A stretch of DNA of 64,000 bases from Tausonia pullulans (lineage: Eukaryota > Basidiomycota > Tremellomycetes > Cystofilobasidiales > Mrakiaceae): NCBI GenBank assembly GCA_951802195.1, contig OX637625.1:1178001-1242000 (forward strand). Direction: 5' to 3'. Below, in pieces: positions 6,853 to 36,503 of this stretch; the stretch's first letter is position 1, and each line of letters opens with the position of its first letter. Both the position numbers and the translations under genes were made by a program. The notes beneath the pieces were generated by a model. The model ran no database searches and was not told where the DNA came from. It saw nothing but the letters and a program-made list of their open reading frames with translations.

Positions 6853-8276
6853 AGTTTTTTCTGTGTTGAGTCATAAGTCATACGTAGAGGAGGAGGTACC
6901 CCTATGAGAGATAGAGAGTCGTAGCTAGATAGAGGGAGAGCGAGAATGAAAGAAGAGGTGGAAGGAAAGCAAAGACGGGTATGGATATAGGCCCATTAGA
7001 AAAGGTGATATGTCCATGGGAAAGAGCGTTGAGTGGAGATGGAAAAATGTAGAAGGCGAGAGTGGGCGGGGTAAGGGATGTCTAAAAGTACACATCAAGG
7101 TGATCAGCCATATCAAGAAACTCCTCCTCTATTTCGTCGTCATCGTCGGAGTTCTCCAGCAGGCCTTCCTGCAAAAGCTTGTTTGGGGTATTGTAGCACG
7201 CGTGGATCCGAGGTTTCACGCCTCTCACGTTCAGCGGCAGGGACTGTAGTTGGGTTAGGATGTCTTGGGCATTTCCTTGAGGGTCGATCTGGAGGAGCAT
7301 TCTGCCATTTCGATTTTTGAAAGGACGGATCAGGCTGGACAGCTGTTCGTTGCACTCGGAGATTGCGTTGGAGATCTCGATGGGAGTGGTATCTCGAGGG
7401 ACGAAAATGGCGAGACGGTTCACGCGGTCGAAACCCAAGGCTGAGAAGATCGAGGTAATATCCTGCGGAGGTTGTTGAGCGGCTCCGAAGGCGAATGCAA
7501 GCCGGGGCTGGATGTCAGACGAGTCACGTTGCCTCGCAGCTGAAGTTGTAGGATGAGCCTGTTTGGCGGCATTCGCTTGTGAGCTGCCAACGGCGTTCGG
7601 CTGGGGGTTTGCGGCGGAGGTCGCCGGCGCGGGCGACGCGGCGCTGGGGACGAAGGGAGGTTGTTGATAGAGTGTCTCGCCTGTGGAACGAGGCGGTGTG
7701 AGATGCGCCCCTTCAGACGTGAGGGATGGAGCGGCATTGAGGTCGCTAATGGCTGAGCTCGACAGAGTGACACGGCCAGTCGAGGGGGTTGCAGGGGTAC
7801 GGCGGAGAGGGGAGGGAGAAGAGAGGGGGGCCGTGGGGCTGATGTGGTTGTGGGGCGTGGTAGGGTCGGGGGTAGGAGTAGTAGGGTGGGTGTTATCGGT
7901 AGCTTCGGTAGGCTCGGGGGCCTCGGAAGCCTCGGTAGCCTCGGTGGCTCCTGTAGGCTTGATAGGGTTGCTGGGATGGGTAGGGGTGCCAGGGTCACTA
8001 GGACTGGTCGGACGAGAAGGAGAGCCGAGGGTGGGTTTGTTGACGGGCGTGTTGGGACGTTCGTCGATGCGAGAGGGCGTGTTGGTCGCCGTGTCTTGGA
8101 CGGCGATGGCCGCCTCGTCCGATCCGCTCTTTTGCTGTGCTGGAGAGGGAGGGTCTAGGGGATCCTCGGGAGCCCTGAGAGCTCCATGGGGTCGCTTGAG
8201 GGCTGAGTCACTAGGCATATGGTAGGGTGATCTGGGTTGCCTGGTGGTGGTTGTGGTGGTTGTGGTGGGTTGTGGT
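6853..8276 (-). mobile_element. LINE relative L1, internally deleted, ORF1 only
   Basis: Reads right to left. The 3' end matches the LINE tail of copies A-D (AAGTCATACGTAGAGG, then CCCTATGAGAGATA and GGCCCATTAGAAAAGG in + view, 6870-7000), but the sequence is more diverged. The 5' end carries CCACAACCACCACCAGG at about 8262-8276. The second half of ORF1 and all of ORF2 are missing: the open frame passes from the ORF1 core straight into 3'-end sequence near 7110. Its 5' end lies about 66-80 bp from the 5' end of tRNA-Leu at 8343, head-to-head. The long open frame despite divergence suggests a non-autonomous, ORF1-only lineage rather than plain decay. Confidence 0.8.
7082..8218 (-). CDS. LINE ORF1-type protein, truncated form
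   Basis: Open frame of about 378 residues from the conserved internal start MPSDS (8218), the same start used by ORF1 of copies A-C; the frame is also open upstream to 8329, but that part is unlike the other copies. It is Pro/Ser/Thr-rich, then enters the conserved ORF1 core: FVPRDTTPIEISNAISECNE, LIRPFKNRNGRMLLQID, ILTQLQSLPLNVRGVKPRIH. The two CCHC knuckles found in the full-length copies are absent, because the frame ends in former 3'-end sequence (DMADHLDVYF). It could be expressed as a nucleic-acid-binding protein lacking knuckles, or be a passive relic; the uninterrupted frame mildly favours the former. Confidence 0.6.
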   Translation of the reverse strand: MPSDSALKRPHGALRAPEDPLDPPSPAQQKSGSDEAAIAVQDTATNTPSRIDERPNTPVNKPTLGSPSRPTSPSDPGTPTHPSNPIKPTGATEATEASEAPEPTEATDNTHPTTPTPDPTTPHNHISPTAPLSSPSPLRRTPATPSTGRVTLSSSAISDLNAAPSLTSEGAHLTPPRSTGETLYQQPPFVPSAASPAPATSAANPQPNAVGSSQANAAKQAHPTTSAARQRDSSDIQPRLAFAFGAAQQPPQDITSIFSALGFDRVNRLAIFVPRDTTPIEISNAISECNEQLSSLIRPFKNRNGRMLLQIDPQGNAQDILTQLQSLPLNVRGVKPRIHACYNTPNKLLQEGLLENSDDDDEIEEEFLDMADHLDVYF

Positions 8277-8342
8277 GCGGGGGAGGAGGAGGAAGACCGA
8301 ACGAGCTGCTGGCGGGCTCGCCCTGCCATCCATACAGCACAC

Positions 8343-8435
8343 GGTCGGATGGCCGAGCGGTCTAAGGCGCTAGCTTAAGGTTCTCATATGAACTCGCTAG
8401 TCTTCACGGGCATGGGTTCGAATCCCATTCCGATC
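8343..8435 (+). tRNA. tRNA-Leu (AAG) with intron
   Basis: Type II tRNA. Acceptor GGTCGGA pairs with TCCGATC. The anticodon stem CTAGC/GCTAG is split by an intron of about 14 nt (TTCTCATATGAACT) one base after anticodon AAG. The T-arm is ATGGG-TTCGAAT-CCCAT and the variable arm is long. TTTTGC follows at about 8442 as terminator. LINE relative L1 lies immediately upstream, head-to-head. Confidence 0.9.
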
Positions 8436-8725
8436 ATGTCTCTTTTGCTCCGTCCTGCGGTTCTCCCGGCGTGGCCAGCGTCAGCTGGAGGACCGCTCGA
8501 TGGCGTCGGGGTGACCGCTCAATGGCGTCGGGGTGTCAGATAACGCAGGACGAACGCAGGAAGGGTCCGTCCAGTCCACCACGGCTGAAGGGGCTGCGAG
8601 AGCCGATGCTAGAGCTTTTGTTTTGTTTTCAAAAACAGGAGAGCGACAGCATCGTCAGGTTTGGGGTGGCCTGGGCGACGAGCGTCCATGGAACGAGGGA
8701 TGCTTCGGCTGCTTCGTCTGAGCGT

Positions 8726-8828
8726 GCCCTGCTAGCTCAATCGGTAGAGCGTCAGACTCTTACAGCAGGTGTTCAACAGTCGCTTCGCAGGTGATCTGAA
8801 GGTTGGGGGTTCGACCCCCCCGTGGGGC
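8726..8828 (+). tRNA. tRNA-Lys (CTT) with intron
   Basis: Acceptor GCCCTGC pairs (with wobble) with GTGGGGC. Anticodon stem TCAGA/TCTGA, loop CTCTTA plus A, anticodon CTT, interrupted after position 37 by an intron of roughly 31 nt. The T-arm holds GGTTCGACC followed by a C-run. The sequence CCTTTTGC follows at about 8838-8845 as terminator. Confidence 0.9.
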
Positions 8829-8851
8829 TAATGTTTCCTTTTGCCGGGATC

Positions 8852-9282: not shown

Positions 9283-9774
9283 ACCTTAGACTTCAAGCCT
9301 GAAGTCCGCCTCACCTTTTGCTGGACGTGGGCAGATGTGATCGTTCGTGTCCGTCATCGGCGCGCCCTCGTCCCGCCCGCTTCTCTGCACCTCATCAAGA
9401 ATGTGTCCGTCTGACCGTGGCCCAGCACCCACGTTCCCTGCGCAGGAAGCAGTCTGCTTGACCCGGGACCCGCACGGGTGCCCGCAGACCGAAGCGAGGA
9501 TCCAGTCTACTGCGAGCTGGCTAGTCCCAAGCTGGTCGATCCACTGCAAGCTGGTCGATCGATCAGCCGACACGAGCTCTGCTCGAAGTCCCGTCGGCAC
9601 CCCAAGCATGGGTCAGTCGCGCCCTGCTTCCCGGCCGACTGCACGCCCGCTGCTGGCCGGGCCAAGCTCGCACTGTCCGTGGAGATGAGGCGTTGCAGGC
9701 CTGCCAAGGGCAGAGCAGAAGGCAGCGGGGCAAAAGAAGGATCGCGTTCCTCAACGAGGAGGTGACACTGTCTT
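9283..9774. other. Spacer between tRNA genes
   Basis: About 490 bp with no supported gene. Short direct repeats of AGCTGGTCGATC occur near 9530-9560. CAAAAGAAGG at 9730-9739 is, on the minus strand, the TTTTGC terminator candidate of the tRNA-Ala that follows. Confidence 0.5.
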
Positions 9775-9846
9775 GGAGACTATAAGAGTTGAACTCATGA
9801 CCTTACACATGCTAAGCGTACGCTCTACCAACTGAGCTAAATCCCC
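9775..9846 (-). tRNA. tRNA-Ala (AGC)
   Basis: Read on the minus strand: acceptor GGGGATT with AGTCTCC, anticodon stem TACGC/GTGTA, loop TTAGCAT, anticodon AGC, T-loop TTCAACT. The gene sequence is identical to the one at 26425, and the two share the first nine upstream bases (AAGTGGTTT in + view) before their flanks diverge. LINE copy A starts about 68 bp from its 5' end, pointing away. Confidence 0.93.
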
Positions 9847-9978
9847 AAGTGGTTTTTATGTGCAGTCTGCGCCGTGGGAGGAGGTCGTTCATCGTCCGTC
9901 AGGGGCGCGCCGTTGCAACCACCATCCCAACCAACAAAAAAAAAACCACCACCAGGTCAACCCAGGTCACCCTACCTT

Positions 9979-11874
9979 ATGCCTAGTGAATCAACCCCCA
10001 AGCGACTCCAAGAAGCCCTCAAGGCTCCCAAGGATCCCCCGGACCCTCCCTCCTCAGCAAAGAGAAAGAGCGGATCCGATGAAACCCCGAGCGTCCAAGA
10101 CGCGACCAATACGCCCTCTCGCGTCGACGAACGTCCCCAAACGCCCGTCAACAAACCCACCCTCAGCCCACCTGCCCATCCGACCAGTCCTAGGAGCCCT
10201 AGCACTCCTACCAATCCTACCGACCCCAGCACTCCTACCAATCCTACCAACCGCACCAACCCTGCCAACCCCCTCATCCATATCAGCCCCACGGCCCTCC
10301 TCTATTCTCCCTCCCCCCTCCGCAGAACCCCTGCAACCCCCTCAATTCGCCGTATCACGCGGTCGAGTTCAGCCATCAGCGACCTCAATGCCGCTCTATC
10401 CCCCACGTCCGAAGTGACGCGTCTCACTCCGTCTCGCTCTACAGGCGAGACTCTCTCTCAACAACCTCTCTTCGTCCCCGGCGCCGCGTCGCCCGCGCCG
10501 GCGACCTCCGCCGGCACTCGCACTCGCGCTGCCGCAAAATCCCAGCCGAAAGCCACCGGCCGCTCATATGCAAACGCCGCCAAACAGGCTCATCCTACAA
10601 ACTCAGCTGCGAGGCAACGTGACTCGTCTGGCACCCAGCCCGGGTTCACCTTCGCCTTCGGAACCGATCAACAACCTCCGCAGGACAATACCCCAATCGC
10701 CCCAGCCTTGACTATCAATCGCGGGAGCTGTCTAGCCATCTCTGTCCCTCGCGATACCACTCCTTTCGAGATCTCTCTCGCAATCTCCAAGTGTGACGAA
10801 CGGCTGTCTTTCCTGATCCGTCCTTTCAAGGACCCTAAAGACAGAATGCTCCTCCAAGTCAGACCAGAAGAAGATGCTCAGGACATCCTGACCAAACTAC
10901 AGTCCCTCCCGCTGAACGTGAGGGGGGTGAAACCTCAGATCCACGCGTGCTACAATTCCCAAAACAAGCTCCTGCAGGAAGGTCTGCTGGAGAACTTCGA
11001 AGATAACAAGGGAGTAGAGGAGGAGTTCCGCAAACAGGTAGAAGCCTCCGGAGACAGAGTCATCCTCTTCCAGCGTCAATTCGACCCCCGCTTACCCGGC
11101 GTCCCAACTGGCCGGGCTAGAGTCCTACTCGACCTCTCTGGCTCCAAGATGATGCCGAGGGCAAATGCCTTCACTCAGCAGTTCCCCGGCTGGGTCAACT
11201 GCGATGTCTTGTTCAAACCCGTCCAGACTAGCTCTGCGACAAACTCTTCATCACGTCCAGCCCCGACGCACTGCTACTACTGCCACTCTTTTGAGCACGC
11301 TCGTGTCAAGTGTCCCACCGCTCCAGAGTGTGGCGGATGCGGATCACGCGCTCACCCATCGGCCCGATGCCCAGGTCGTCCAAAGGCAAATCTTCCAGCG
11401 AGTGCACGAGCACCAACCGAAGGACCCCCCCAACGACCTGTCGAACCGGGACCAGACCTGGATGGTTTCCAGCTTGTACAAAAATCCAAGAGGAGGTCAC
11501 TGAACAGGCCGACTGAAGCCATGACGGAGGTGACCACACCCCCTGCCCACGCCAGCCCCTCCCACTCCCACTCAGAGCAAGCACCGCGCAATGCGGGCTC
11601 GCAACCCATTCGCACGCTGAGCGCCCTAGAGGAGGACAACGAGGGGGGTCTGGAGAGGACAGAAGACGGGATGCAGATCGAAGACGAGCATCCACCCCCC
11701 ACTCCACCTCCCCTGTCACCATCGTCCCCCCCACCCCCATCCCCATCCCCGCCATCTTCGCTCCCCCTGAACCCACCCTCCACTCCTTCTCTCATCTCCT
11801 CCACGCCATCCTCCCAGGCATCCATCGAGCGCACCCTCGTGACCTTGGCTGAAGCCGAGGACATGGAAGAATAA
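9979..11874 (+). CDS. LINE A ORF1, gag-like zinc-knuckle protein
   Basis: 631 residues from the conserved start MPSESTPKR. In-frame sequence upstream to 9874 is open but is not shared between copies, so this start is preferred. A long Pro/Ser/Thr-rich N-terminal part is followed by a conserved core (LAISVPRDTTPFEISLAIS, ILTKLQSLPLNVRGVKPQIH) and two CCHC knuckles near residues 432-465: CYYCHSFEHARVKC and CGGCGSRAHPSARC. The C-terminal 150 residues are Pro-rich. It should coat element RNA. The stop overlaps the ORF2 start as TAATG. It is identical to B over the C-terminal quarter but differs clearly from B and C in the core. Confidence 0.9.
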   Translation: MPSESTPKRLQEALKAPKDPPDPPSSAKRKSGSDETPSVQDATNTPSRVDERPQTPVNKPTLSPPAHPTSPRSPSTPTNPTDPSTPTNPTNRTNPANPLIHISPTALLYSPSPLRRTPATPSIRRITRSSSAISDLNAALSPTSEVTRLTPSRSTGETLSQQPLFVPGAASPAPATSAGTRTRAAAKSQPKATGRSYANAAKQAHPTNSAARQRDSSGTQPGFTFAFGTDQQPPQDNTPIAPALTINRGSCLAISVPRDTTPFEISLAISKCDERLSFLIRPFKDPKDRMLLQVRPEEDAQDILTKLQSLPLNVRGVKPQIHACYNSQNKLLQEGLLENFEDNKGVEEEFRKQVEASGDRVILFQRQFDPRLPGVPTGRARVLLDLSGSKMMPRANAFTQQFPGWVNCDVLFKPVQTSSATNSSSRPAPTHCYYCHSFEHARVKCPTAPECGGCGSRAHPSARCPGRPKANLPASARAPTEGPPQRPVEPGPDLDGFQLVQKSKRRSLNRPTEAMTEVTTPPAHASPSHSHSEQAPRNAGSQPIRTLSALEEDNEGGLERTEDGMQIEDEHPPPTPPPLSPSSPPPPSPSPPSSLPLNPPSTPSLISSTPSSQASIERTLVTLAEAEDMEE

Positions 11875-14800
11875 TGGTGTACAATGATGTACAGATCGTC
11901 GCGGCGAACATCCAGAGGGTGTTCACGCGAGATCGCGCCCGCAGTCTCCTCCTCTCTCTATATTCACGATCCAAGGCTGACATATACCTTCTCTCAGAAA
12001 TAGCATGCACAACACCAGGTCAGGTGGCGACCTGGACAGCTGAGTGTGAAGATATGGGCTTCGGCTCGATCTTTACGGTCGGATGCCAGACTGCCATCCT
12101 CTGGCGGCAGGCCTCTCGATTCCTTCCTCCTGATACCCCTCCAACTAGGATCAGATCCATCTCCCGCTCCTCCCCCATCTTACAAACCAACCTGACGGAT
12201 GCTGTCTTCACCATAGCCGGCGAAGCCGTCAGGGTGGCCGCAGTCTATGTCCCCTGCCGAGACAGCCAAACGAACGGCCGCTCGACAAAGGAGTTCCTCT
12301 CTACTCTATCTCGCAAGATACCTGCCCACTCTGACATTCCTCTCCTCCTGGGAGGGGACTGGAACTGTGTGGAGGACAGCTACCTCGACGGGATGAGCCA
12401 ATTTACCCAGAACGCGGGAAAGGAGGAAATGTGCCGGCTGGCCCGGGACTATGCCCTCTCCGACCCATACCGATCCCTATACCCGCTCCAGCGCGAATAC
12501 ACTAACTATACTGGCATCACGCGAGCAGATCGCCGCATCGATCGCTTCTACCTGTCCCCTCTACTCGCTAGCCGAGCCGTGCGACAGCGCTTCCTGCCAC
12601 GCCCGACCGGCCATCTCTACTCTAGCCACAAGCCGATCGCACTCAGCCTCACCTTCCCCGGTGCAATAGAGCACGGTCCCGGATCGTACAAGATCGGAAC
12701 ACACCTTCTGAAGATTACCGGTTTTGTTGAGTACTTCCTCTACCACGTTCCCAAGTGGTACCAAGATGCGCTCACCGAGATCAGGGACCCCTTCGAGGCC
12801 TGGGACGAGACCAAGCTTCAGATAGCGGATCACGCGTCAGACATCTCAAGACACCTCGCCCGAATGAGCAGAGTGTCAGGCGGGGATCCACACAGGTCGA
12901 TCCTCCATGGCCACGCTCTTCGAGCCCACCTCGAACCAGCCAACACAAGCGAGTATGCCGTCAAGCAGCGACTCAAGATCGTCCGCCAGGCCGACACTAT
13001 CGCAGCCCTGCGGCCACTCAACAACCCAGCGGCCGCAGCCATCGCAAACAACGAGAACATTCTAGCTACAGCACACGCCTTCTACACAACTCTCTACGAG
13101 ACCAAGCCGACGCCAGCTGCCGAGCACGCCAACGTCCTCCGATATGTCACCAACACACTCGACAACTCCCAGAGTCGGACCCTCGAGAAACCCTTCGAAC
13201 TGGACGAGCTCAGGCGGGCCACGTTCAGATCGAACCGTAACAAGACACCAGGAAGCGACGGGATCCCCGTCGAGTTCTACCAGGCCACATGGGCTGCCGT
13301 CGGCCCGATCCTCCTCAGCCTACTGAACCTCGTCCCGGAGACAGGCCTCCGATCCGCCTCACAGCGCGAGGCCCATATCCATCTGATCTTCAAGAAGAAG
13401 GGAGATCGCGACCAGATTGCCAACTATCGCCCGATCTCGCTCATCAACGTTGACGCTCGCATCTTCTCCCTTGCCATCAACAGCCGCCTGCTCACCGTCG
13501 TGGACACCCTCATCGACGGGGACCAGACAGGCTTCCTCCCTGGCCGCGACTCGGGTCGCAACATCTCCTCTCTCCAGCTCGCCATAGACGACGAAGACCT
13601 CTTGCCTGGCGTCCTCGCCCAGGTCGACTTCGAGAAGGCATACGACAGAGTGTCGCACGACTTTGTTGGCCCCTGCCTCAGCCACATGGGGTTCGGTCCG
13701 CGCACCGCCGCGTGGATCACCTCAACGATGACCTCCCAGACAGCTCGCCTCATGATCAACGGATGGATGGGCCAAGCCATCGACATCCGGTCTGGTGTCC
13801 GCCAGGGCGATCCCGCGGCACCGACGATCTTCGCCCTCCTCCTGGAGCCGCTGGCATGCATGCTCCGCCATCGCCTCCCACCAGCCAATCCGTCCCCTCT
13901 ACATGAGCGGAAGGTCCTTCTCTTTGCAGACGATCTAATTATCCGGTGTCGGACCTGGTCGGAGGTCGATGAGGCGACGGTCTGCCTCCGAGAGTACGAG
14001 AAAGCCGCAGCAAGCAAGCTGAACTACCAGAAATCACTCCTCTATCCGCTAGGGTCATGCCGGACGGATGCGCCTACGAGGTACCACGAATGGCGCGTCC
14101 AAACGCTGTCATTCGACTTCCTCGGCGTTCCATGCGGTCGCACGGTCGACGGTCCTGCTCACTGGCGAGAGATCATCGGCAAGCTGAAGGCTCGTCTTGC
14201 TCGCATCCCGCTGCACGATCTCCCTCTCCTTGCGCGATGCAACGTCATCAACCAGTACATCTACTCGAAGATCATCTAACTGGACCGCTTCCTGCCGTGC
14301 CCAGACGATATCCTGGAAGACCTCGAGGCAACGGCCTACAAGTCCCTCTACCGATCGAAACACCACGACGTCAGCAGGGAGCATCTGGAAACCCCTCGAG
14401 ACCTCGGCGGCTTTGGCTTCACGCCACTCCGATTCCGGCTCATCAAGGCGCGCGCCCAGTGGGCTGGCGATGTGCTCTTCCAACCGGAGCTTCCCGCATC
14501 GATCCGTATTCGCAAGCGGATCATCCATACCATGAGCCTCGACCCAGGGGCTTATAGAATGATGAATCGCACCATCTTCAGGGATGGAGAGTTCATCAGA
14601 GGACCTCGGCCCGCCAATTTCAGCTGGTTAGGCGTATTCCTTTCCCCAGTGGAAGGTCAATGGTTCTTCCCAGCCGTCTGGTGGAATGCCATCACAAAGC
14701 TCCAAGGAGCTCTCCCTGCGCGATGCCAGGCTTACCTCCGGGCATGGTTCGAAGAAATCAGCTTTGACATGAGCTACTGGAATCAAGACCGCTGGAGGAA

Positions 14801-15548
14801 CGCTGTCCACTGGATGTCTACGTTCGGTACAGATAGCCAGTTACGGCTGGGTCTCCACCCTAGCCACACAAACCTTGGCCGGCTGAACGTTCCTCGTGAG
14901 CCCCACGGCGCACACAGTCGTACTCTAGCCAACCGCGGCCTCATCATCCCAAAGGGGTGGCAAGACCACTTTCCGGCGCTTACCAAGATCGATTGGAAGC
15001 GGCAGTGGTGCTTGCTTAAGGCCGTGTCCCGAGCGTCGCCCGAGGACGTCGACTTGGCCCACCGATTCTCGCTGTACAGTCTCCACCCAGGGAAGCATAC
15101 TGCTGCGCCATTCCTCGCCGACGGCACCGCTACACCGCACAACAGGTCCAAGCGATGTGCGCTGTGCCTGACGGCCCCCGTCGAGTCCTTCTTCCACCTT
15201 TTCGACGAGCCGTGTCCCGTCGTTCGCGCTATCTGGTCGGCTGCGGCAGCGCATGCCTCTCCTTCACTCCCCTCCCATCCTCCCTCCCTCCAGACGCTTG
15301 TCTGCCCGACACCGTCGCCGCCGAGGGGGGTCTTCCTCTTCCACTGCATCTTTGTTGCCCGGACATGGCGATCCGTCCGGAGGCGGAGGTACAGCAAGAT
15401 CGCAGCCCTCGATCCTGTCACGGACGAGGAGATCCGCAAGATCGCGTCTATGATCCGGCAGACACACTGGCAGTCGAGTACGAGGTGGATAGCTCGCAGG
15501 GACCAGATGGATGGAACTGCGGTCGGCGCCGACATCGATCCTGGGTGA
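11874..15548 (+). pseudogene. LINE A ORF2 (endonuclease-RT), one nonsense codon
   Basis: A frame of 1224 codons, interrupted once by TAA at 14277-14279 (codon 802); the frame continues unchanged to 15548. An APE-type endonuclease occupies the first 260 residues (IVAANIQR, LLLGGDWNCVEDSY, RIDRFYLSP, SSHKPIALSL). The reverse transcriptase spans about 450-720: KTPGSDGIPVEFY, ANYRPISLINVDA, AQVDFEKAYDR, GVRQGDPAAP, and the catalytic FADD at codons 682-685. After the stop come a conserved region and a Cys-His cluster, RCALCLTAPVESFFHLFDEP, then a final Cys. The APE plus RT plus C-terminal Cys-His layout fits L1/Tad-like LINEs. Copy B has the same stop; copy C has TAC (Tyr) there. Confidence 0.9.
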
Positions 15549-15801
15549 CAAGCAGGTCTGGGGTGGGGAAGTATGGCTGGTGTTACATCGCCAATGCTTG
15601 GTGTATCTGGTCATCTTGATATCTTACCTTTTCTAATGGGCATATGTCCATAACCATCTTTTGCTTTCCTTCCACCCCTACTTTCATTTTCGCTCTCTCT
15701 CTATCTAGCTAAGAATCACCATCTCTCATAGGGTTACCTCGTTCTCTACGTATAACTCATGACTTAAATACAACAAAAAAATGTTTCGTCGCGTCGCCGA
15801 C

Positions 15802-15877
15802 TCGTTATCGCTCATAGGGTCATCTCGCCCTCTTCGAATAACTCATCACTTAATACAAATTAAATACAATAAAAAGC
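15802..15877 (+). mobile_element. Old LINE or V-type tail beyond copy A
   Basis: A diverged copy of the family's last 75 bp: GCTCATAGGGTCATCTCG, TAACTCATCACTTAATAC and AAATACAATAAAA match the 3' end of copy A. The preceding CGACTCGTTATC is closer to the V1/V2 tail than to the LINE tail. It lies just outside copy A in the same orientation, as expected for an earlier insertion pushed outward. Confidence 0.75.
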
Positions 15878-26367: not shown

Positions 26368-26424
26368 TGAAGAAAAATCAGTCAATATCCAATGGGAGGG
26401 CCTGCTCCATCAAGCAAACCACTT

Positions 26425-26496
26425 GGGGATTTAGCTCAGTTGGTAGAGCGTACGCTTAGCATGTGTAAGGTCATGAGTTCAACTCTTATAGTCTCC
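26425..26496 (+). tRNA. tRNA-Ala (AGC), second copy
   Basis: Same 72-nt sequence as the tRNA-Ala at 9775-9846 (anticodon AGC in loop TTAGCAT, acceptor GGGGATT/AGTCTCC). There is no T-run directly after it; TTTTGC appears about 35 nt downstream (near 26532). LINE copy B lies upstream head-to-head. Confidence 0.93.
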
Positions 26497-27702: not shown

Positions 27703-28838
27703 TTTTTTTTTTGTATTTAAGTCATGAGTTATACGTGGAGAACGAGGTAACCCTATGAGAGATATCGAGTTGTAGCTAGATAGAGGGAGAGCGGACATGA
27801 CCGAGCGCGAGAACGTCGGGCGAGGCGCCGTGGGAAGAGGGTTGGCCGAACCACTGGGGATGATTGGCCGGACGGCGTGATGGGCGCCGTGAGAGGGGGG
27901 TTGGTCGAACCACCGGGATGGTGGTTGGCCGGAAGAGGGTTGGTCGAACCACTGGGGATGGTTGGCCGGACGGCGTGATGGGCGCCGTGAGAGGGGGGTT
28001 GGTCGAACCACCGGGATGGTGGTTGGCCGGAAGGGGGTTGGTCGAACCACTGGGGATGGTTGGCCGGACGGCGTGATGGGCGCCGTGAGAGGGGGGTTGG
28101 TCGAACCACCGGGATGGTGGTTGGCCGGAAGGGGGTTGGTCGAACCACTGGGGATGGTTGGCCGGACGGCGTGATGGGCGCCGTGAGAGGGGGGGGGGGT
28201 TGGTCGAACCACCGGGGATGGTGGTTGGCCGGAAGGGGGTTGGTCGAACCACTGGGGATGGTTGGCCGGACGGCGTGATGGGCGCCGTGAGAGGGGGGTT
28301 GGTCGAACCACCGGGATGGTGGTTGGCCGGAAGGGGGTTGGTCGAACCACTGGGGATGGTTGGCCGGACGGCGTGATGGGCGCCGTGAGAGGGGGGTTGG
28401 TCGAACCACCGGGATGGTGGTTGGCCGGAAGAGGGTTGGTCGAACCACTGGGGATGGTTGGCCGGACGGCGTGATGGGCGCCGTGAGAGGGGGGGGGGGT
28501 TGGTCGAACCACCGGGGATGGTGGTTGGCCGGAAGGGGGTTGGTCGAACCACTGGGGATGGTTGGCCGGACGGCGTGATGGGCGCCGTGAGAGGGGGGTT
28601 GGTCGAACCACCGGGATGGTGGTTGGCCGGAAGGGGGTTGGTCGAACCACTGGGGATGGTTGGCCGGACGGCGTGATGGGCGCCGTGAGAGGGGGGTTGG
28701 TCGAACCACCGGGATGGTGGTTGGCCGGAAGGGGGTTGGTCGAACCACTGGGGATGGTTGGCCGGACGGCGTGATGGGCGCCGTGAGAGGGGGGGGGGGG
28801 TTGGTCGAACCACCGGGGATGGTGGTTTGACAAGAGGG
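27703..28838 (-). mobile_element. V1: VNTR element with borrowed LINE 3' tail
   Basis: On the minus strand it begins near 28838, runs through about ten units of a 98/104-bp tandem repeat, a 40-bp joining segment, then about 85 bp matching the LINE 3' end (GTTACCTCGTTCTCC, ACTCATGACTTAAATAC) and an A10 tail (T-run 27703-27712). It contains no LINE ORF1 or ORF2 sequence. V2 at 34695-35219 has the same order and the same junction between tail and repeat, so this is an element rather than a one-off. Open frames exist in all three minus frames because the repeat lacks stops; they are not taken as genes. Confidence 0.8.
27839..28829 (-). repeat. 98-bp minisatellite array, about ten units
   Basis: Units start every 98 bp (27864, 27962, 28060, 28158, 28262, 28360, 28458, 28562), with two 104-bp variants made by longer G-runs. 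Each unit has the hairpins ACGGCG-TGATGGG-CGCCGT and AACCACC-GGGAT-GGTGGTT, and two minus-strand copies of GGTTCGACC. Confidence 0.95.
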
Positions 28839-29070
28839 TTTTTTTTGTATTTAAGTCATGAGTTATACGTAGAGAACGAGGTAACCCTATGAGAGATGAT
28901 GATTCGTAGCTAGATAGAAGGAAAGCGAAAATGAAAGTAGGGATGGAAGGAAAACAAAAGATGGGTCATGGACATAGGCCCATTAGAAAAGGTAAGATAT
29001 TAAGATGACCAGATACACCAAGCATTGGCTATGTACCACCAGCCATACTTCCCCATCCCTGACCTGCTTT

Positions 29071-32000
29071 TCACCCAGGATCGATGGCGGCACCGACAGC
29101 AGTACCAGCCATCTGGCCACTGCCAGCAGTCCACCTCGTACTCGCCTGCCAGTGTGTCTGCCGGATCGTAGACGCGATCTTGCGGATCTCCTCGTCCGTG
29201 ACAGGGTCGAGGGCTGCGATCTTGCTGTACCTCCGCCTTCGGACGAATCGCCATGTCCGGGCAACAAAGATGCAGTGGTAGAGGAAGGCCGCCCTCGGCG
29301 GCGACGGCGTTGGGCAGACGAGCGTCTGGAGGGACGGAGGATGGGAGGGGAGTGAAGGAGAGGCACGCGCTGCCGCAGCCGACCAGATAGCGCGCACGAC
29401 GGGACACGGCTCGTCGAAGAGGTGGAAGAAGGACTCGACGGGGGCCGTCAGGCACAGTGCACATCGCTTGGACCTGTTGTGCGGCGTAGCGGTTCCGTCG
29501 GCGAGGAATGCCGCAGCAGTATGCTTTCCTGGGTGGAGACTGTACAGCGAGAAGCGGTGGGCCAAGTCGACGTCTTCGGGCGACGCTCGGGACACTGCCT
29601 TGAGCAAGCACCACTGACGCTTCCAATCGATCTTGGTAAGCGCCGGAAAGTGGTCTTGCCACCCCTTTGGGATGATGAGGTCGCGGTTGGCTAGAGTACG
29701 ACTGTGTGCGCCGTGGGGCTCACGAGGAACGTTCAGCCGGCCCAGGTTTGTTTGGATAGGGTGGAGAGCTATCCGCAACTGGCTATCTGTACCGAACGTA
29801 GACATCCAGTGGACAGCGTTCCTCCAGCGGTCTTGATTCCAGTAACTCATGTCAAAGCTGATTTCTTCGAACCATGCCCGGAGGTAAGCCTGCCATCGTG
29901 CAGGGAGAGCTCCTTGGAGCTTTGTGATGGCATTCCACCAGACGGCTGGGAAGAACCATTGACCTTCCACTGGGGAAAGGAATACGCCTAGCCAGCTGAA
30001 ATTGGCGGGCCGAGGTCCTCTGATGAACTCTCCATCCCTGAAGATGGTGCGAGTCAGCATTCTATAAGCCCCTGGGTCGAGGCTCATGGTATGGATGATC
30101 CGCTTGCGAATACGGATCGATGCGGGAAGCTCCGGTCTGAAGAGCACATCGCCAGCCCACTGGGCGCGCGCTTTGATGAGCCGGAATCGGAGTGGCGTGA
30201 AGCCGAAGCCACCGAGGTCTCGAGGGGTTTCCAGACGCTCCCTGCTGACGTCGTGGTGTTTCGATCGGTAGAGGGACTTGTAGGCCGTTGCCTCGAGATC
30301 TTCCAGGATATCGTCTGGGCACGGCAGGAAGCGGTCCAGGTAGATGATCTTCGAGTAGATGTACTGGTTGATGATGTTGCATCGCGCAAGGAGTGGGAGG
30401 TCGTGCAGCGGGATGCGCGCGAGTCGAGCCTTCAGTTTGCCGATGACATCTCGCCAGCAAGCAGGCACGTTGACCGTGCGACCACATGGAACGCCGAGGA
30501 AGTCGAATGACAGCGTTTGGACGCGCCAATCGTGGTACATCGTTGGTGCATCCGGCCGGCATGACCCTAGAGGATAAAGGAGTGATTTCTGGTAGTTCAG
30601 CTTGCTTGCTGCGGCTTTCTCGTACTCTCGGAGGCAGACCGTCGCCTCATCGACCTCCGACCAGGTCCGACACCGGATAATTAGATCGTCTGCAAAGAGA
30701 AGGACCTTCCGCTCGTGTAGAGGGGGCGGATTGGCTGGTGGGAGGCGATGGCGGAGCATACATGCCAGCGGCTCCAGAAGGAGGGCGAAGATCGTCGGTG
30801 CCGCGGGATCGCCCTGTCGGACACCAGACCGGATGTCGATGGCTTGGCCCATCCATCCGTTGATCATGAGCCGAGCAGTCTGAGAGGTCATCGTTGAGGT
30901 GATCCACGCAGCGGCGCGCGGACCGAACCCCATGTGGCTGAGGCAGGGGCCAACAAAGTCGTGCGACACTCTGTCGTATGCCTTCTCGAAGTCGACTTGG
31001 GCGAGGACGCCAGGCAAGAGGTCTTCGTCGTCTATGGCGAGCTGGAGAGAGGAGATGTTGCGACCCGAGTCGCGGCCAGGGAGGAAGCCTGTCTGGTCCC
31101 CGTCGATGAGGGTGTCCACGACGGTGAGCAGGCGGCTGTTGATGGCAAGGGAGAAGATGCGAGCGTCAACGTTGATGAGCGAGATCGGGCGATAGTTGGC
31201 AATCTGGTCGCGATCTCCCTTCTTCTTGAAGATCAGATGGATATGGGCCTCGCGCTGTGAGGCGGATCGGAGGCCTGTCTCCGGGACGAGGTTCAGTAGG
31301 CTGAGGAGGATCGGGCCGACGGCAGCCCATGTGGCCTGGTAGAACTCGACGGGGATCCCGTCGCTTCCTGGTGTCTTGTTACGGTTCGATCTGAACGTGG
31401 CCCGCCTGAGCTCGTCCAGTTCGAAGGGTTTCTCGAGGGTCCGACTCTGGGAGTTGTCGAGTGTGTTGGTGACATATCGGAGGACGTTGGCGTGCTCGGC
31501 AGCTGGCGTCGGCTTGGTCTCGTAGAGAGTTGTGTAGAAGGCGTGTGCTGTAGCTAGAATGTTCTCGTTGTTTGCGATGGCTGCGGCCGCTGGGTTGTTG
31601 AGTGGCCGCAGGGCTGCGATAGTGTCGGCCTGGCGGACGATCTTGAGTCGCTGCTTGACGGCATACTCGCTTGTGTTGGCTGGTTCGAGGTGGGCTCGAA
31701 GAGCGTGGCCATGGAGGATCGACCTGTGTGGATCCCCGCCTGACACTCTGCTCATTCGGGCGAGGTGTCTTGAGATGTCAGACGCGTGATCCGCTATCTG
31801 AAGCTTGGTCTCGTCCCAGGCCTCGAAGGGGTCCCTGATCTCGGTGAGCGCATCTTGGTACCACTTGGGAACGTGGTAGAGGAAGTACTCAACAAAACCG
31901 GTAATCTTCAGAAGGTGTGTTCCGATCTTGTACGATCCGGGACCGTGCTCTATTGCACCGGGGAAGGTGAGGCTGAGTGCGATCGGCTTGTGGCTAGAGT

Positions 32001-32745
32001 AGAGATGGCCGGTCGGGCGTGGCAGGAAGCGCTGTCGCACGGCTCGGCTAGCGAGTAGAGGGGACAGGTAGAAGCGATCGATGCGGCGATCTGCTCGCGT
32101 GATGCCAGTATAGTTAGTGTATTCGCGCTGGAGCGGGTATAGGGATCGGTATGGGTCGGAGAGGGCATAGTCCCGGGCCAGCCGGCACATTTCCTCCTTT
32201 CCCGCGTTCTGGGTAAATTGGCTCATCCCGTCGAGGTAGCTGTCCTCCACACAGTTCCAGTCCCCTCCCAGGAGGAGAGGAATGTCAGAGTGGGCAGGTA
32301 TCTTGCGAGATAGAGTAGAGAGGAACTCCTTTGTCGAGCGGCCGTTCGTTTGGCTGTCTCGGCAGGGGACATAGACTGCGGCCACCCTGACGGCTTCGCC
32401 GGCTATGGTGAAGACAGCATCCGTCAGGTTGGTTTGTAAGATGGGGGAGGAGCGGGAGATGGATCTGATCCTAGTTGGAGGGGTATCAGGAGGAAGGAAT
32501 CGAGAGGCCTGCCGCCAGAGGATGGCAGTCTGGCATCCGACCGTAAAGATCGAGCCGAAGCCCATATCTTCACACTCAGCTGTCCAGGTCGCCACCTGAC
32601 CTGGTGTTGTGCATGCTATTTCTGAGAGAAGGTATATGTCAGCCTTGGATCGTGAATATAGAGAGAGGAGGAGACTGCGGGCGCGATCTCGCGTGAACAC
32701 CCTCTGGATGTTCGCCGCGACGATCTGTACATCATTGTACACCAT
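29071..32745 (-). CDS. LINE C ORF2: APE endonuclease, reverse transcriptase
   Basis: 1224 residues, uninterrupted. Makes the nick and the cDNA in target-primed reverse transcription. APE endonuclease about 1-260 (ANIQR, GGDWNCVEDS, ADRRIDRFYLSP, SSHKPIALSL). RT about 450-720 with DGIPVEFY, YRPISLINVD, VDFEKAYDR, GVRQGDPAAP and FADDLIIR (catalytic Asp pair at 684-685). Position 802 is Tyr (SKIIYLDRFLPCPDD), where A and B have a stop. C-terminal Cys-His cluster RCALCLTAPVESFFHLFDEP followed by Cys. Translation probably depends on re-initiation at the TAATG overlap with ORF1. The clade is probably L1/Tad-like; a tree would decide. Confidence 0.93.
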   Translation of the reverse strand: MVYNDVQIVAANIQRVFTRDRARSLLLSLYSRSKADIYLLSEIACTTPGQVATWTAECEDMGFGSIFTVGCQTAILWRQASRFLPPDTPPTRIRSISRSSPILQTNLTDAVFTIAGEAVRVAAVYVPCRDSQTNGRSTKEFLSTLSRKIPAHSDIPLLLGGDWNCVEDSYLDGMSQFTQNAGKEEMCRLARDYALSDPYRSLYPLQREYTNYTGITRADRRIDRFYLSPLLASRAVRQRFLPRPTGHLYSSHKPIALSLTFPGAIEHGPGSYKIGTHLLKITGFVEYFLYHVPKWYQDALTEIRDPFEAWDETKLQIADHASDISRHLARMSRVSGGDPHRSILHGHALRAHLEPANTSEYAVKQRLKIVRQADTIAALRPLNNPAAAAIANNENILATAHAFYTTLYETKPTPAAEHANVLRYVTNTLDNSQSRTLEKPFELDELRRATFRSNRNKTPGSDGIPVEFYQATWAAVGPILLSLLNLVPETGLRSASQREAHIHLIFKKKGDRDQIANYRPISLINVDARIFSLAINSRLLTVVDTLIDGDQTGFLPGRDSGRNISSLQLAIDDEDLLPGVLAQVDFEKAYDRVSHDFVGPCLSHMGFGPRAAAWITSTMTSQTARLMINGWMGQAIDIRSGVRQGDPAAPTIFALLLEPLACMLRHRLPPANPPPLHERKVLLFADDLIIRCRTWSEVDEATVCLREYEKAAASKLNYQKSLLYPLGSCRPDAPTMYHDWRVQTLSFDFLGVPCGRTVNVPACWRDVIGKLKARLARIPLHDLPLLARCNIINQYIYSKIIYLDRFLPCPDDILEDLEATAYKSLYRSKHHDVSRERLETPRDLGGFGFTPLRFRLIKARAQWAGDVLFRPELPASIRIRKRIIHTMSLDPGAYRMLTRTIFRDGEFIRGPRPANFSWLGVFLSPVEGQWFFPAVWWNAITKLQGALPARWQAYLRAWFEEISFDMSYWNQDRWRNAVHWMSTFGTDSQLRIALHPIQTNLGRLNVPREPHGAHSRTLANRDLIIPKGWQDHFPALTKIDWKRQWCLLKAVSRASPEDVDLAHRFSLYSLHPGKHTAAAFLADGTATPHNRSKRCALCLTAPVESFFHLFDEPCPVVRAIWSAAAARASPSLPSHPPSLQTLVCPTPSPPRAAFLYHCIFVARTWRFVRRRRYSKIAALDPVTDEEIRKIASTIRQTHWQASTRWTAGSGQMAGTAVGAAIDPG

Positions 32746-34655
32746 TATTCTTCCATGTCCTCGGCTTCAGCCAAGGTCACGAGGGTGCGCTCGATGGATG
32801 CCTGGGAGGATGGCGTGGAGGAGATGAGAGAAGGAGTGGAGGGTGGGTTCAGGGGGATTGAAGATGGGGGGGATGGGGATAGGGGAAGGGGAGACGATGG
32901 TGACAGGGGAGGTGGTGTGGGAGGAGGATTCTCGTCTTCGACCTGCATCCCGTCTTCTGTCCTCTCCAGACCCCCCTCGTTGTCTTCCTCTAGGGCGCTC
33001 AGCGTGCGAATGGGTTGCGAGCCCGCATTGCGCGGTGCTTGCTCTGAGTGGGAGTGGGAGGAGTCGGCGTAGGCAGGAGGTGTCACCACCTCCGTCGTGG
33101 CTTCCGTCGGCCTGTTCAGTGACCTCCTTTTGGATTTTTGTACGAGCTGGTATCCATCCAGGTCTGTTCCCGGTTCGACAGGTCTCTGGGGGGGTCCTTC
33201 GGTTGGTGCTCGCGCATTCGCTGGAAGGTTTGCCTTCGGACGACCTGGGCATCGGGCCGATGGGTGAGCGTGCGATCCGCATCCGCCACACTCTGGAGCG
33301 GTAGGACACTTGGCACGAGCGTGCTCAAATGAGTGGCAGTAATAGCAGTATGACGAGGCTGGTCGAGCTGGAGAGTTCGTCCCAGTGCCAGGTTGGACAG
33401 GTTTGAAGATGACATGTTGGTTGACCCAGCCGGGTAGCTGTTGAGGGAATGCATTCGCCCTTGGCATCGTCTTGGAGCCAGAAAGGTCGAGCAGGACTCT
33501 AACCCGGCCAGTTGGGACGCCGGGTAGGCGGGCGTAATACTGACGCTGGAATATGATGACTCTGTCTCCAGAAGCTTCTACTTGTTTGCGAAAAGCTTCC
33601 TCCACTCCGTCTTCGTCTTCGAAGTTCACCAGCAGACCTTCTTGCAGGAGCTTGTTTTGGGAATTGTAGCACGCGTGGATCTGGGGTTTGACGCCTCTCA
33701 CATTCAGCGGGAGGGCCTGTAGTTGAGTCAAGATGTCTTGAGCATTTCCTCGGGAGTTGACTATAAGGAGCATTCTGTCTTTTGGGTCCTTGACAGGACG
33801 GATCATGAAAGACAGTCGTTCGTCGCACTTTGAGATTGCGAGAGAGATCTCGAAAGGAGTGGTATCTCGAGGGACTGAGATGGCTAGACAGTTCCCGCGG
33901 TCGGTAGCCAAGGCTGGGGCGATTGGGGTATTGTCCTGCGGAGGTTGTTGAGCGGTTCCGAAGACGAAAGGGAACTGGGGCTGGGTGCCAGACGAGTCAC
34001 GTTGTCTCGCAGCTGAGGTTGTAGGATGAGCCTGTTTGGCGGCGTTCGCATATGAGCGGCCGATGGCGTTCGGCTGGGATTTCGCGGCGGCGCGAGTGCG
34101 AGTGCGAGTGCCGGCGGAGTTCGCCGGCACGGGCGACGCGGTGCCGGGGACGAAGAGAGGTTGTTGAGGGAGAGTCTCGCCTGTAGAGCGAGACGGAGTG
34201 AGACGCGTCACTTCGGACGTGGAGGATAGAGCGGCATTGAGGTCGCTGATGGCTGAGCTCGACCGCGTGATACGGCGAGCTGGGGGAGTTGCAGGAGTTC
34301 TGCGGAGGGGGGAGGGAGAAGAGAGGAGGGCCGTGGGGCTGATATGGATATGGGGCGTGGTGGGGTTGGTAGGGTTGGTACGATTGGTACGATTGGTAGG
34401 AGTGCTGGGGTCGGTAGGATTGGTAGGAGTGCTAGGGCTGCTAGGACTGGTCGGATGGGCAGGTGGGCTGAGAGTGGGTTTGCTGACGGGCGTTTGAGGA
34501 CGTTCGTCGACGCGAGAGGGCGTATTGGTCGCGTCTTGGACGCTGGGGGTTTCATCGGATCCACTCTTTCTGTTTGCTGGAGAGGGAGGGTCTGGGGGAT
34601 CCTTGGGAGCCTTGAGGGCTTCTTGGAGTCGCTTGGGGGTTGATTCACTAGGCAT
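32745..34655 (-). CDS. LINE C ORF1, gag-like zinc-knuckle protein
   Basis: 636 residues from MPSESTPKR, open throughout. Domain order as in A and B: Pro/Ser/Thr-rich region, conserved core (DRGNCLAISVPRDTTPFEIS, MLLIVNSRGNAQDILTQ), two CCHC knuckles (CYYCHSFEHARAKC, CGGCGSHAHPSARC), Pro-rich tail ending AEAEDMEE. The frame stays open upstream through the leader, the A-tail of V2 and part of its repeat to 35045, which would give a 766-residue fusion; the conserved ATG at 34655 is preferred because all copies share it. The C-terminal tail is distinct from the tail shared by A and B. Confidence 0.9.
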   Translation of the reverse strand: MPSESTPKRLQEALKAPKDPPDPPSPANRKSGSDETPSVQDATNTPSRVDERPQTPVSKPTLSPPAHPTSPSSPSTPTNPTDPSTPTNRTNRTNPTNPTTPHIHISPTALLSSPSPLRRTPATPPARRITRSSSAISDLNAALSSTSEVTRLTPSRSTGETLPQQPLFVPGTASPVPANSAGTRTRTRAAAKSQPNAIGRSYANAAKQAHPTTSAARQRDSSGTQPQFPFVFGTAQQPPQDNTPIAPALATDRGNCLAISVPRDTTPFEISLAISKCDERLSFMIRPVKDPKDRMLLIVNSRGNAQDILTQLQALPLNVRGVKPQIHACYNSQNKLLQEGLLVNFEDEDGVEEAFRKQVEASGDRVIIFQRQYYARLPGVPTGRVRVLLDLSGSKTMPRANAFPQQLPGWVNQHVIFKPVQPGTGTNSPARPASSYCYYCHSFEHARAKCPTAPECGGCGSHAHPSARCPGRPKANLPANARAPTEGPPQRPVEPGTDLDGYQLVQKSKRRSLNRPTEATTEVVTPPAYADSSHSHSEQAPRNAGSQPIRTLSALEEDNEGGLERTEDGMQVEDENPPPTPPPLSPSSPLPLSPSPPSSIPLNPPSTPSLISSTPSSQASIERTLVTLAEAEDMEE

Positions 34656-34694
34656 AAGGTAGGGTGACCTGGATTGACCTGGTGGTGGTTGTGG

Positions 34695-35219
34695 TTTTTT
34701 TGTATTTAAGTCATGAGTTATACGTGGAGAACGAGGTAACCCTATGAGAGATAGCGAGTTGTAGCTAGATAGAGGGAGAGCGGACATGACCGAGCGCGAG
34801 AACGTCGGGCGAGGCGCCGTGGGAAGAGGGTTGGCCGAACCACTGGGGATGATTGGCCGGACGGCGTGATGGGCGCCGTGAGAGGGGGGTTGGTCGAACC
34901 ACCGGGATGGTGGTTGGCCGGAAGAGGGTTGGTCGAACCACTGGGGATGGTTGGCCGGACGGCGTGATGGGCGCCGTGAGAGGGGGGGGGGGTTGGTCGA
35001 ACCACCGGGGATGGTGGTTGGCCGGAAGGGGGTTGGTCGAACCACTGGGGATGGTTGGCCGGACGGCGTGATGGGCGCCGTGAGAGGGGGGTTGGTCGAA
35101 CCACCGGGATGGTGGTTGGCCGGAAGGGGGTTGGTCGAACCACTGGGGATGGTTGGCCGGACGGCGTGATGGGCGCCGTGAGAGGGGGGTTGGTCGAACC
35201 ACCGGGATGGTGGTTGTGG
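34695..35219 (-). mobile_element. V2: second VNTR element with LINE tail
   Basis: Same build as V1: A-tail (T-run 34695-34701), about 85 bp of LINE 3' end, the same joining segment, then about four repeat units (34829-35219; unit starts 34853, 34951, 35055, so 98 and 104 bp). Its 5' end reads CCACAACCACCATCCC, whose first 12 bases equal the LINE leader of copy C. It is inserted between LINE D and LINE C, all in one orientation. Confidence 0.8.
34829..35219 (-). repeat. 98-bp minisatellite array in V2, about four units
   Basis: Same unit as in V1, with the same two hairpins and paired GGTTCGACC motifs per unit, and one 104-bp variant caused by a longer G-run. Confidence 0.93.
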
Positions 35220-36352
35220 TTTTTTTTGTATTTAAGTCATGAGTTATACGTAGAGAACGAGGTAACCCTATGAGAGATGGTGATTCGTAGCTAGATAGAG
35301 TGAGAGCGAAAATGAAAGTAGGGGTGGAAGGAAAATCAAAGATGGGTCATGGACATAGGCCCATTAGAAAAAGGTAAGATATCAAAATGTCCGGCCAATT
35401 CAAGCGGTGGCTATGGTCTATAGTCTAGCCATACTTCTCCACCCCTGACCTGCTGTTCACCCAGGATCGATGGCGGCACCGAGGGCAGTACCAGCCATCT
35501 GGCCACTGCCAGCCATCCACCTCGTACTCGACTGCCAGTGTGTCTGCCGGATCGTAGACGCGATCTTGCGGATCTCCTCGTCCGTGACAGGGTCGAGGGC
35601 TGCGATCTTGCTGTACCTCCGCCTTCGGACGAATCGCCATGTCCGGGCAACAAAGATGCAGTGGAAGAGAAAGACCGCCCTCGGCGGCGACGGTGTCGGG
35701 CAGACGAGCGTCTGGAGGGAGGGAGGATGGGAGGGGAGCGAAGGCGAGGCACGTGCAGCAGCCGCCGACCAGATAGCGCCCACGACGGGGCACGGCTCGT
35801 CGAAGAGGTGGAAGAAGGACTCCACGGGGGCCGTCAGGCACAGCGCACATCGCTTGGACCTGTTGTGCGGCGTAGCGGTTCCGTCGGCGAGGAATGGCGC
35901 AGCAGTATGCTTTCCTGGGTGGAGACTGTACAGCGAGAAGCGGTGGGCCAAGTCGACGTCTTCGGGCGACGCTCGGGACACGGCCTTGAGCAAGCACCAC
36001 TGCCGCTTCCAATCGATCTTGGTAAGCGCCGGAAAGTGGTCCTGCCAGCCCTTTGGGATGATGAGGTCGCGGTTGGCTAGAGTACGACTGTGTGCGCCGT
36101 GGGGTTCACGAGGGGCGTTCAGCCGGCCGAGGTTTGTGTGAATAGGGAGGAAACCCAGCCGCAACTGGCTATCTGTACCGAACGTAGACATCCAGTGGAC
36201 AGCGTTCCTCCAGCGGTCTTGATTCCAATAGCTCATGTCAAAGCTGATTTCTTCGAACCATGCCCGGAGGTAAGCCTGCCATCGTGCAGGGAGAGCTCTT
36301 CGGAGCCTTGGGATGGCATTCCACCAGACGGCTGGGAAGAACCATTGACCTT
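35220..36352 (-). mobile_element. LINE copy D, 5'-truncated
   Basis: The last 1.13 kb of the LINE with A-tail (T-run 35220-35227). Similarity to copies B and C stops abruptly at GGTCAATGGTTCTTCCC (minus view), at about 36352, inside ORF2. The truncated end is 80 bp from the 5' end of tRNA-Glu at 36433. It is the element nearest the tRNA and by position the latest of the stack. Confidence 0.92.
35457..36352 (-). pseudogene. LINE D ORF2 fragment, C-terminal 300 codons
   Basis: Open to the normal ORF2 stop (AAIDPG end at 35457). It holds the region after the RT, including RCALCLTAPVESFFHLFDEP plus Cys, but no endonuclease or RT catalytic motifs. A few codons of flanking DNA (MCLPQ) precede the LINE part. 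A dead fragment. Confidence 0.9.
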
Positions 36353-36366
36353 GTGGGAGGCACATG

Positions 36367-36376
36367 AACAGGGCGT
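36367..36376 (+). promoter_or_regulatory. Decamer AACAGGGCGT upstream of tRNA-Glu
   Basis: Identical to the decamer at 26358-26367, at -66 here versus -67 there. It lies 14 bases from the boundary of LINE D. Confidence 0.35.
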
Positions 36377-36432
36377 AAAGGCTGATGGGCGGGTGGATAT
36401 TGGTAGCAACACAAGGCTCCTTCTGAGCTTTG

Positions 36433-36503
36433 TCCTTTGTTGTCTAACGGCTATGATATGACGCTCTCACCGTCAAGGCCCGGGTTCGACTCCCGGCAAG
36501 GGA
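36433..36503 (+). tRNA. tRNA-Glu (CTC), second copy
   Basis: Same 71-nt sequence as 6330-6400, anticodon CTC. T4 terminator in ATATCCTTTTCC just downstream. Four LINE-family elements (D, V2, C, V1) are stacked upstream of it. Confidence 0.95.

Follow-up and report, generated by a model that had tools for sequence, protein, structure and literature searches.

The 64,000-nucleotide stretch of Tausonia pullulans DNA analysed here (the window; C6:1178001-1242000 of a 23.86-Mb genome in 21 contigs) harbors copies of a long interspersed nuclear element (LINE) with two open reading frames, ORF1 and ORF2, and of a partner element, SAT, upstream of transfer RNA (tRNA) genes. The assignment to a fungus rests on mitochondrial COX1 (18.8-kb contig, TGA read as Trp): among the 120 matches listed of 8000, those with names are basidiomycetes at 66-68% identity, and unnamed ones reach 72%. 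ARAGORN predicted 9 tRNA genes in the window at default settings and 10 when introns were allowed, while self-comparison by BLAST revealed three full-length LINE copies, two 5'-truncated ones, two SATs and one shortened relative. An element is present at five of the ten tRNA genes and absent at Glu6330, Lys8726, Val9097, Ala26957 and Ile27174. The occupied tRNA genes and their elements are as follows, with the source of each assignment in brackets.

6855..8277, minus strand: 'LEU1', a shortened LINE relative in which the 5' end and ORF1 region are fused to the LINE 3' end, starting 65 bp upstream of tRNA-Leu (BLAST, sequence)
8343..8436, plus strand: tRNA-Leu, target (ARAGORN)
9773..9847, minus strand: tRNA-Ala, target (ARAGORN)
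9916..9945, plus strand: short SAT 5' fragment and A-run, between tRNA-Ala and the LINE (by eye)
9944..15779, plus strand: full-length LINE copy (BLAST, open reading frames)
15782..15870, plus strand: 3'-end remnant of an older copy, immediately behind the full-length copy (by eye)
19970..20056, minus strand: tRNA-Met with an 11-nt intron, target (ARAGORN)
20125..20293, plus strand: 5'-truncated LINE (final ~170 bp), 68 bp upstream of tRNA-Met (BLAST, sequence)
20544..26355, minus strand: full-length LINE copy with an interrupted ORF2 frame, 68 bp upstream of tRNA-Ala (BLAST)
26424..26498, plus strand: tRNA-Ala, target (ARAGORN)
27704..28838, minus strand: second SAT, fourth element of the tRNA-Glu array (BLAST)
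28839..34694, minus strand: full-length LINE with both frames open, third in the array (open reading frames)
34695..35216, minus strand: SAT, second in the array (BLAST)
35217..36352, minus strand: 5'-truncated LINE, 80 bp upstream of tRNA-Glu and first in this four-element head-to-tail array (BLAST)
36433..36504, plus strand: tRNA-Glu, target (ARAGORN)

All five element/tRNA pairs are head to head, with gaps of 65 (Leu 8343), 68 (Ala 9847), 68 (Met 20056), 68 (Ala 26424) and 80 bp (Glu 36433), in agreement with the original prediction, made from the letters of the window, that its LINEs face tRNA genes at a near-fixed distance. At tRNA-Ala 9847 it is the SAT fragment that starts 68 bp away, the LINE proper starting at 96 bp. 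The anticodon that ARAGORN assigns to tRNA-Met 20056 varies with the settings, and its identity was taken from the match to the tRNA-Met of locus L024; the truncated copy facing this gene is bordered by a target-site duplication (TSD), TCGCCCA, at 20120-20126 and 20296-20302.

Both frames are open in one of the three full-length window copies. In this copy (28839..34694), the ORF1 ATG lies near 34655 and ORF2 spans 29071-32745 (1224 aa); in the copy at 9944..15779, the ORF1 ATG lies near 9979 and the ORF2 frame stops early, at 14279. ORF1 contains two CX2CX4HX4C motifs (CCHC knuckles), and its stop codon overlaps the ORF2 start as TAATG (11872-11876 in the latter copy). The ORF2 reverse transcriptase matches Pfam RVT_1 (E 6e-26) and, among solved structures, human L1 ORF2p best (E 1e-44), with R2-type proteins at 4e-16 at best. 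An N-terminal APE endonuclease is weakly matched (Exo_endo_phos, E 0.0046, below the Pfam cut-off; L1 endonuclease, E 0.002), no Pfam match to RNase H was found in the element, and a CX2CX9HX5C motif at residue 1095 is a pattern only, without a Pfam zinc-finger match. Protein searches, in which the best 8000 candidates were scored, returned 14 matches to ORF2, all at 31% identity or less, the sole named one being annotated 'Transposon TX1' (27% identity). The L1-type reverse transcriptase, the weak APE endonuclease, the absence of an RNase H match and the C-terminal zinc-finger-like motif are L1/Tx1 features, and from its protein sequence we regard the element as a probable APE-type, L1/Tx1-like LINE. 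At the same search depth, ORF1 has a close relative in JGI protein P0135 (77% identity over 83%), which suggests that a close relative of the LINE exists elsewhere.

Many copies are 5'-truncated. At least five places in the genome are identical over a 527-bp LINE probe (40 of 92 candidates scored), and the family has therefore been active recently. SAT is non-autonomous; its body consists of ~98-bp tandem repeats in variable copy number, and it ends in the LINE 3' tail.

Genome-wide distribution and geometry of the copies

The LINE 5' end was found at 48 places in the genome with up to 3 mismatches, every one of them listed, and at 0 in the control. Twenty-nine of these ends directly face a tRNA gene, 19 belong to head-to-tail arrays headed at a tRNA, and 0 lie elsewhere, so that the habit proposed from the window copies holds for 48 of 48 ends, at about 42 different tRNA genes. 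In 4 of the 29 direct cases, a short fragment of another copy intervenes (window 9944, C11:470129, C1:508455 and C10:250043; by eye). For the arrays on C3, C7, C11 and C5:1288-1294 kb, the middle was deduced from successive end positions, not read through. The tRNA at C11:1107211 is Lys-like and represented by its 5' part at a stretch end (24.7 bits with the Rfam tRNA model), and that at C9:547966 was taken from the genome-wide RF00005 list. Re-testing of intron-bearing ARAGORN calls with the Rfam tRNA model left L051, L059, L171, the tRNA-Ser beside the LINE at L071 and both tRNA-Ala calls of L101 unmatched at E <= 1; three of these (L059, L071 and L171) count among the 48. The tRNA-Pro at L041 and L065 has the same 5' end as L051 and L059, and the tRNA-Ser at L052 the same as L071. 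Chance placement was rejected, as about 0.09 of 48 ends would be expected head to head at 37-120 bp (1000 tRNA genes assumed, not counted).

The LINE 3' end occurs at 397 places with up to 2 mismatches and at 0 in the reversed control. We grouped the first 100 of them (all exact, from C1 to part of C5), taken irrespective of copy length, into 53 chains, 46 of which reach an ARAGORN tRNA 37-119 bp away, head to head.

Distances were collected for 79 tRNA-proximal elements (heads) covering 17 amino-acid families. These heads were required to differ in the first 60 bp of flank, and the distance search covered the head-to-head strand only; L019, L025, L026, L028, L074, L094 and L095 (repeat or outlier loci), L177 and L178 (identical first 60 bp), and tRNAs either free of elements or with the nearest one at 200 bp or more were left out. 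The median distance is 79 bp (mean 77, standard deviation 14, middle half 68-87, 5-95% 58-97, range 37-119 bp). The 65-80 bp originally proposed thus describes the window and is too narrow for the genome.

A search of both strands showed the nearest upstream element to be head to head in every case within 1000 bp. Of 97 distinct tRNAs (fetched stretches plus window), 82 had their nearest copy head to head at up to 200 bp upstream, 0 had it tail to head and 15 had none there, whereas 0 of 87 tRNAs had a copy within 200 bp downstream; one-orientation targeting of tRNA 5' flanks at a ruler distance, as claimed for the window, is thus supported across the genome. In 30 stretches symmetric around 3' ends, 12 of 14 tRNA rows fell on the copy's 5' side and 14 of 14 were in opposite orientation, the remaining 2 rows being one tRNA that is itself the head of the next copy.

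Seen from the tRNA genes, an element lies within about 200 bp upstream of 36 of the 62 nuclear tRNAs in the RF00005 list (best 63 of 897 candidates scored, one of the 63 being mitochondrial) and none at 26; three of those 36 (the L092 tRNA-Ala, L184 and L188) rest on short or weak matches. An element accompanies each of the ten tRNAs that score 69.8 bits in this list, of which three were read as tRNA-Trp. The 26 element-free tRNAs include families with near-identical flanks on C6 and amount to about 12 independent loci. Two such near-identical tRNA-flank families, both element-free, are spread across C6 (L138-L145 with L187; L152, L153, L155, L156, L162 and L163).

Position of insertion and its proposed tether

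The distance between element and tRNA does not follow the length of the tRNA gene (72-165 bp; n = 77; slope -0.031, standard error 0.068), and its standard deviation is 14 bp when measured to the tRNA 5' end but 27 bp to the 3' end. Two heads, called 'Stop' and 'SeC' by ARAGORN, were left out of the regression; both match the Rfam tRNA model. Because the distance is constant over tRNA gene lengths, the start-site side is favoured as the anchor over the B box. A rigid B-box anchor, for which a slope of -1 was predicted, was rejected.

TSDs and 5' truncation, both features of target-primed retrotransposition, are evident among the copies. A TSD of at least 6 bp was found at 21 of 49 heads compared with 1.0% of shuffled pairs, with a median of 7 bp in the 17 examined; matching tolerated up to 3 tail A's and 3 element bases, a rule that biases the base preceding the nick and was also applied to the shuffled control. 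In several arrays (L041, L042 and L105), the TSD of the first element sits between it and the older element, which indicates insertion of the newer copy on the tRNA side. Other copies are embedded slightly within older LINE sequence and keep the usual distance (L052, L106 and L108; by eye), which argues for a ruler rather than a sequence. A highly regular array, headed by tRNA-Ile, is a ~37-kb head-to-tail series of LINE and SAT at C2:364002-401100 (L031-L038, L122) with a period of about 6.1-6.3 kb.

Collectively, these data make it likely that the LINE inserts upstream of tRNA genes at a ruler distance, through target-primed reverse transcription, with the RNA polymerase III (Pol III) initiation complex as tether. 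The ribonucleoprotein would be held by this complex, most likely through TFIIIB, and the endonuclease would nick the DNA just beyond the upstream edge of TFIIIB; the nicked strand would then prime a complementary DNA that runs away from the tRNA. Each insertion leaves the tRNA and ~70 bp of its flank intact, so the site can be used again. Later copies enter between the tRNA and the older copy, pushing the latter outward and generating head-to-tail arrays. SAT would use the same address, presumably via the LINE's enzyme. A Pol III factor as tether, as put forward in the original prediction, remains a fair model, which the length test refines.

Several observations weigh against this explanation. 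The ruler is loose, with distances scattered across tens of bp; at 28 of the 49 heads no TSD of at least 6 bp was found, possibly owing to later insertions or decay; and most of the fetched stretches had been selected at the 5' side of copies. Seven of the 53 chains in the 3'-end sample have no ARAGORN tRNA at 37-119 bp. Two of these (C1:1969402, L022, and C4:114679, L223) lack a recognizable tRNA, two more (C2:1543383 and C2:1559067; L094 and L095) represent one duplicated locus 260-261 bp from tRNA-Asp, and the other three lie upstream of permuted genes: C1:751389 (L016) upstream of a tRNA-Gln, and C4:630665 and C4:640189 (L111 and L112, a duplicated locus) upstream of a tRNA-Thr-like gene. 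A further copy, C8:993306, listed through ORF2, is split by a long terminal repeat (LTR)-like element and its head was not reached. Finally, the other Pol III genes found, namely a pair of near-identical U6 genes, a divergent 5S match and the RNase P RNA gene, have no copy within about 1.5 kb; they are few, yet TFIIIB alone would predict some copies there.

Some of these loci were inspected individually. L022 is a lone SAT; ~25-40 bp from its 5' end lies a TATATA-like sequence, followed further out by a T-rich run (about 1726-1830), and its flank is possibly an unrecognized Pol III gene; an Rfam search of L022, L123 and part of L223 yielded no credible family. L080 and L053 (C8:990816-993400) contain a LINE copy interrupted by an LTR retroelement, copia-like by eye. 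At 50.5 bits, the 5S match (L079, C5:1466238) is divergent, and no other was scored in the assembly, from which true 5S genes may therefore be absent or have been filtered. The Fungi_SRP model gave no match, but neither did its control, which renders this result uninformative.

The alternative that survives best, although we consider it rather unlikely, is that the tether is TFIIIC, Pol III itself or merely open chromatin upstream of tRNA genes instead of TFIIIB. U6 and RNase P RNA genes rely less on internal promoters in many fungi. Their lack of copies would fit a need for TFIIIC, and so would the absence at all these non-tRNA genes, few as they are. However, the length test excludes a rigid B-box anchor, leaving an A-box arm of TFIIIC compatible, and open chromatin alone would not fix the orientation. 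No clear AT-rich or TATA peak was found upstream of the targeted tRNAs, and 13 element-free ones appeared somewhat less AT-rich.

It is improbable that the counts are inflated by segmental duplication and array recombination, which would lower the number of independent events but cannot create the geometry. Some loci are indeed duplicates of one another (L094/L095, L111/L112, and window 8343 with L176-L178 in their tRNA-Leu flanks), and regularity is marked in the C2:364-401 kb array; yet no two of the 79 heads have identical flanks over the first 60 bp, even if at least one near-identical pair passed (L176 and the window tRNA-Leu), and TSDs differ between heads.

Survivorship, that is, wide insertion of the LINE followed by selection sparing only the copies beside tRNA genes, is very improbable. 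Compact genomes do purge other insertions. One report argues that tRNA targeting evolved because of such purging (PMC5006619). Nevertheless, selection would hardly impose one side and one orientation on the 82 occupied flanks, nor yield a 68-87 bp middle half or set new copies within older ones at an unchanged distance, and five copies identical over 527 bp evidence recent insertion, with little time for purging.

Equally hard to sustain is recognition by the endonuclease of a DNA sequence in tRNA 5' flanks: some LINEs do have sequence-specific endonucleases, but information reached at most 0.67 bit per position at 17 junctions (19 of the 21 heads with TSDs of at least 6 bp, without L024 and L081, 2 more being skipped), flanks differ among loci, and the insertions at L052, L106 and L108 entered LINE sequence located at that distance. 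A sequence-specific target was thus rejected for want of a strong motif.

Permuted tRNA genes

The tRNA-Gln 5' half has 21 genome-wide matches, all with CTG. In 21 of 21 the gene is circularly permuted, its 3' half preceding its 5' half and the break falling at 37/38. Between the halves lie a few to about 50 bases of linker, and a T-run follows shortly downstream of the 5' half. These genes are located as follows.

C1:751726-751819 (L202), with L203-L207 and L208-L222: permuted tRNA-Gln(CUG) genes

When the halves were put in mature order, ARAGORN read four examples (three distinct sequences) as tRNA-Gln(CTG) and one further gene as tRNA-Thr(CGT). No ordinary nuclear tRNA-Gln was found among the ARAGORN tRNAs of the fetched stretches, which are not a genome-wide census. 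L111 (C4:629480-630740, about 490-650) and its mirror copy L112 carry a permuted tRNA-Thr(CGU)-like gene; at L111 an extra A-box-like sequence sits in a hairpin upstream of this gene, and SAT starts about 65 bp past the hairpin. Algae and archaea are the sources of the permuted tRNA genes listed in a 2014 review (PMC3978253), and no fungal case was found by title or abstract in the literature searched.

Relation to known tRNA-targeting elements

TRE5 elements of Dictyostelium insert upstream of tRNA genes, at 40-54 bp and oriented oppositely, and their ORF1 protein contacts TFIIIB (PMC5911963). TRE5-A is, like the LINE described here, an L1-group non-LTR element with ORF1 and an APE-reverse transcriptase ORF2 that lies upstream of tRNA genes in opposite transcriptional orientation (PMC5911963). 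The distance differs (~40-54 bp for TRE5, PMC5911963; median 79 and 5-95% 58-97 bp here), as does ORF2 expression, which in TRE5-A involves a -1 frameshift (PMC5911963) and here the TAATG stop-start overlap. The LINE additionally forms head-to-tail arrays, has a satellite-bodied partner and resides in a fungal host. It shares the upstream position and opposite orientation of TRE5 but neither its distance nor its frameshift, and for these two differences we do not file it as TRE5; convergence with the Dictyostelium element is the best reading.

Other non-LTR elements with the tRNA-upstream habit, NLTR-B of Polysphondylium and NLTR-A of D. purpureum, are unrelated to the TREs and carry RNase H (PMC5911963, PMC5006619), for which the LINE has no Pfam match; their distances are 39-64 bp and 2-6 bp, respectively (PMC5911963). 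In social amoebae, tRNA targeting has at least six independent origins, LTR elements included (PMC5006619). Among fungal retroelements, yeast Ty1, Ty3 and Tj1 and Yarrowia Tyl also lie upstream of tRNA genes (PMC5911963, PMC7175516), Ty3 acting at the start site through TFIIIB (PMC5911963). These are, however, integrase-based LTR elements and not LINEs.

Zorro of Candida is an L1-type fungal LINE. Zorro3 differs from the element studied here in targeting poly(A) sites (PMC7175516). Ylli of Yarrowia is likewise an L1-type fungal LINE, but the portion of its description used here reports no target-site duplication and mentions no tRNA preference (PMC5014426). Tx group LINEs, to which the 'Transposon TX1' match of ORF2 points, are described as target-specific, whereas the part of that source drawn on mentions no tRNA 5'-flank target for the Tx1 group (PMC3747384). 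No fungal LINE with the tRNA-upstream habit was found in searches of the open-licence literature, which could have missed a subscription report.

An apparent fungal LINE thereby joins a habit described for non-LTR elements in social amoebae (PMC5911963, PMC5006619), and, given the same side and orientation at a different distance, the TRE5 solution seems to have arisen again. Tentatively, and with somewhat less than even confidence, we propose that a fungal LINE independently evolved strict tRNA-gene targeting, that it reads the Pol III initiation complex and not the tRNA, and that its insertions would mark where Pol III starts, also at circularly permuted tRNA genes, whose A and B boxes are inverted (L016/L202 and L111); its self-renewing site would give rise to ordered LINE/SAT arrays in which the copy nearest the tRNA is the youngest. 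As the insertion site survives each hit, these arrays record the order of insertion at single tRNA genes, and intron-bearing tRNA genes offer a natural experiment to tell which Pol III factor the element reads. The system bears on safe-site integration in compact genomes and on how a LINE finds a safe site.

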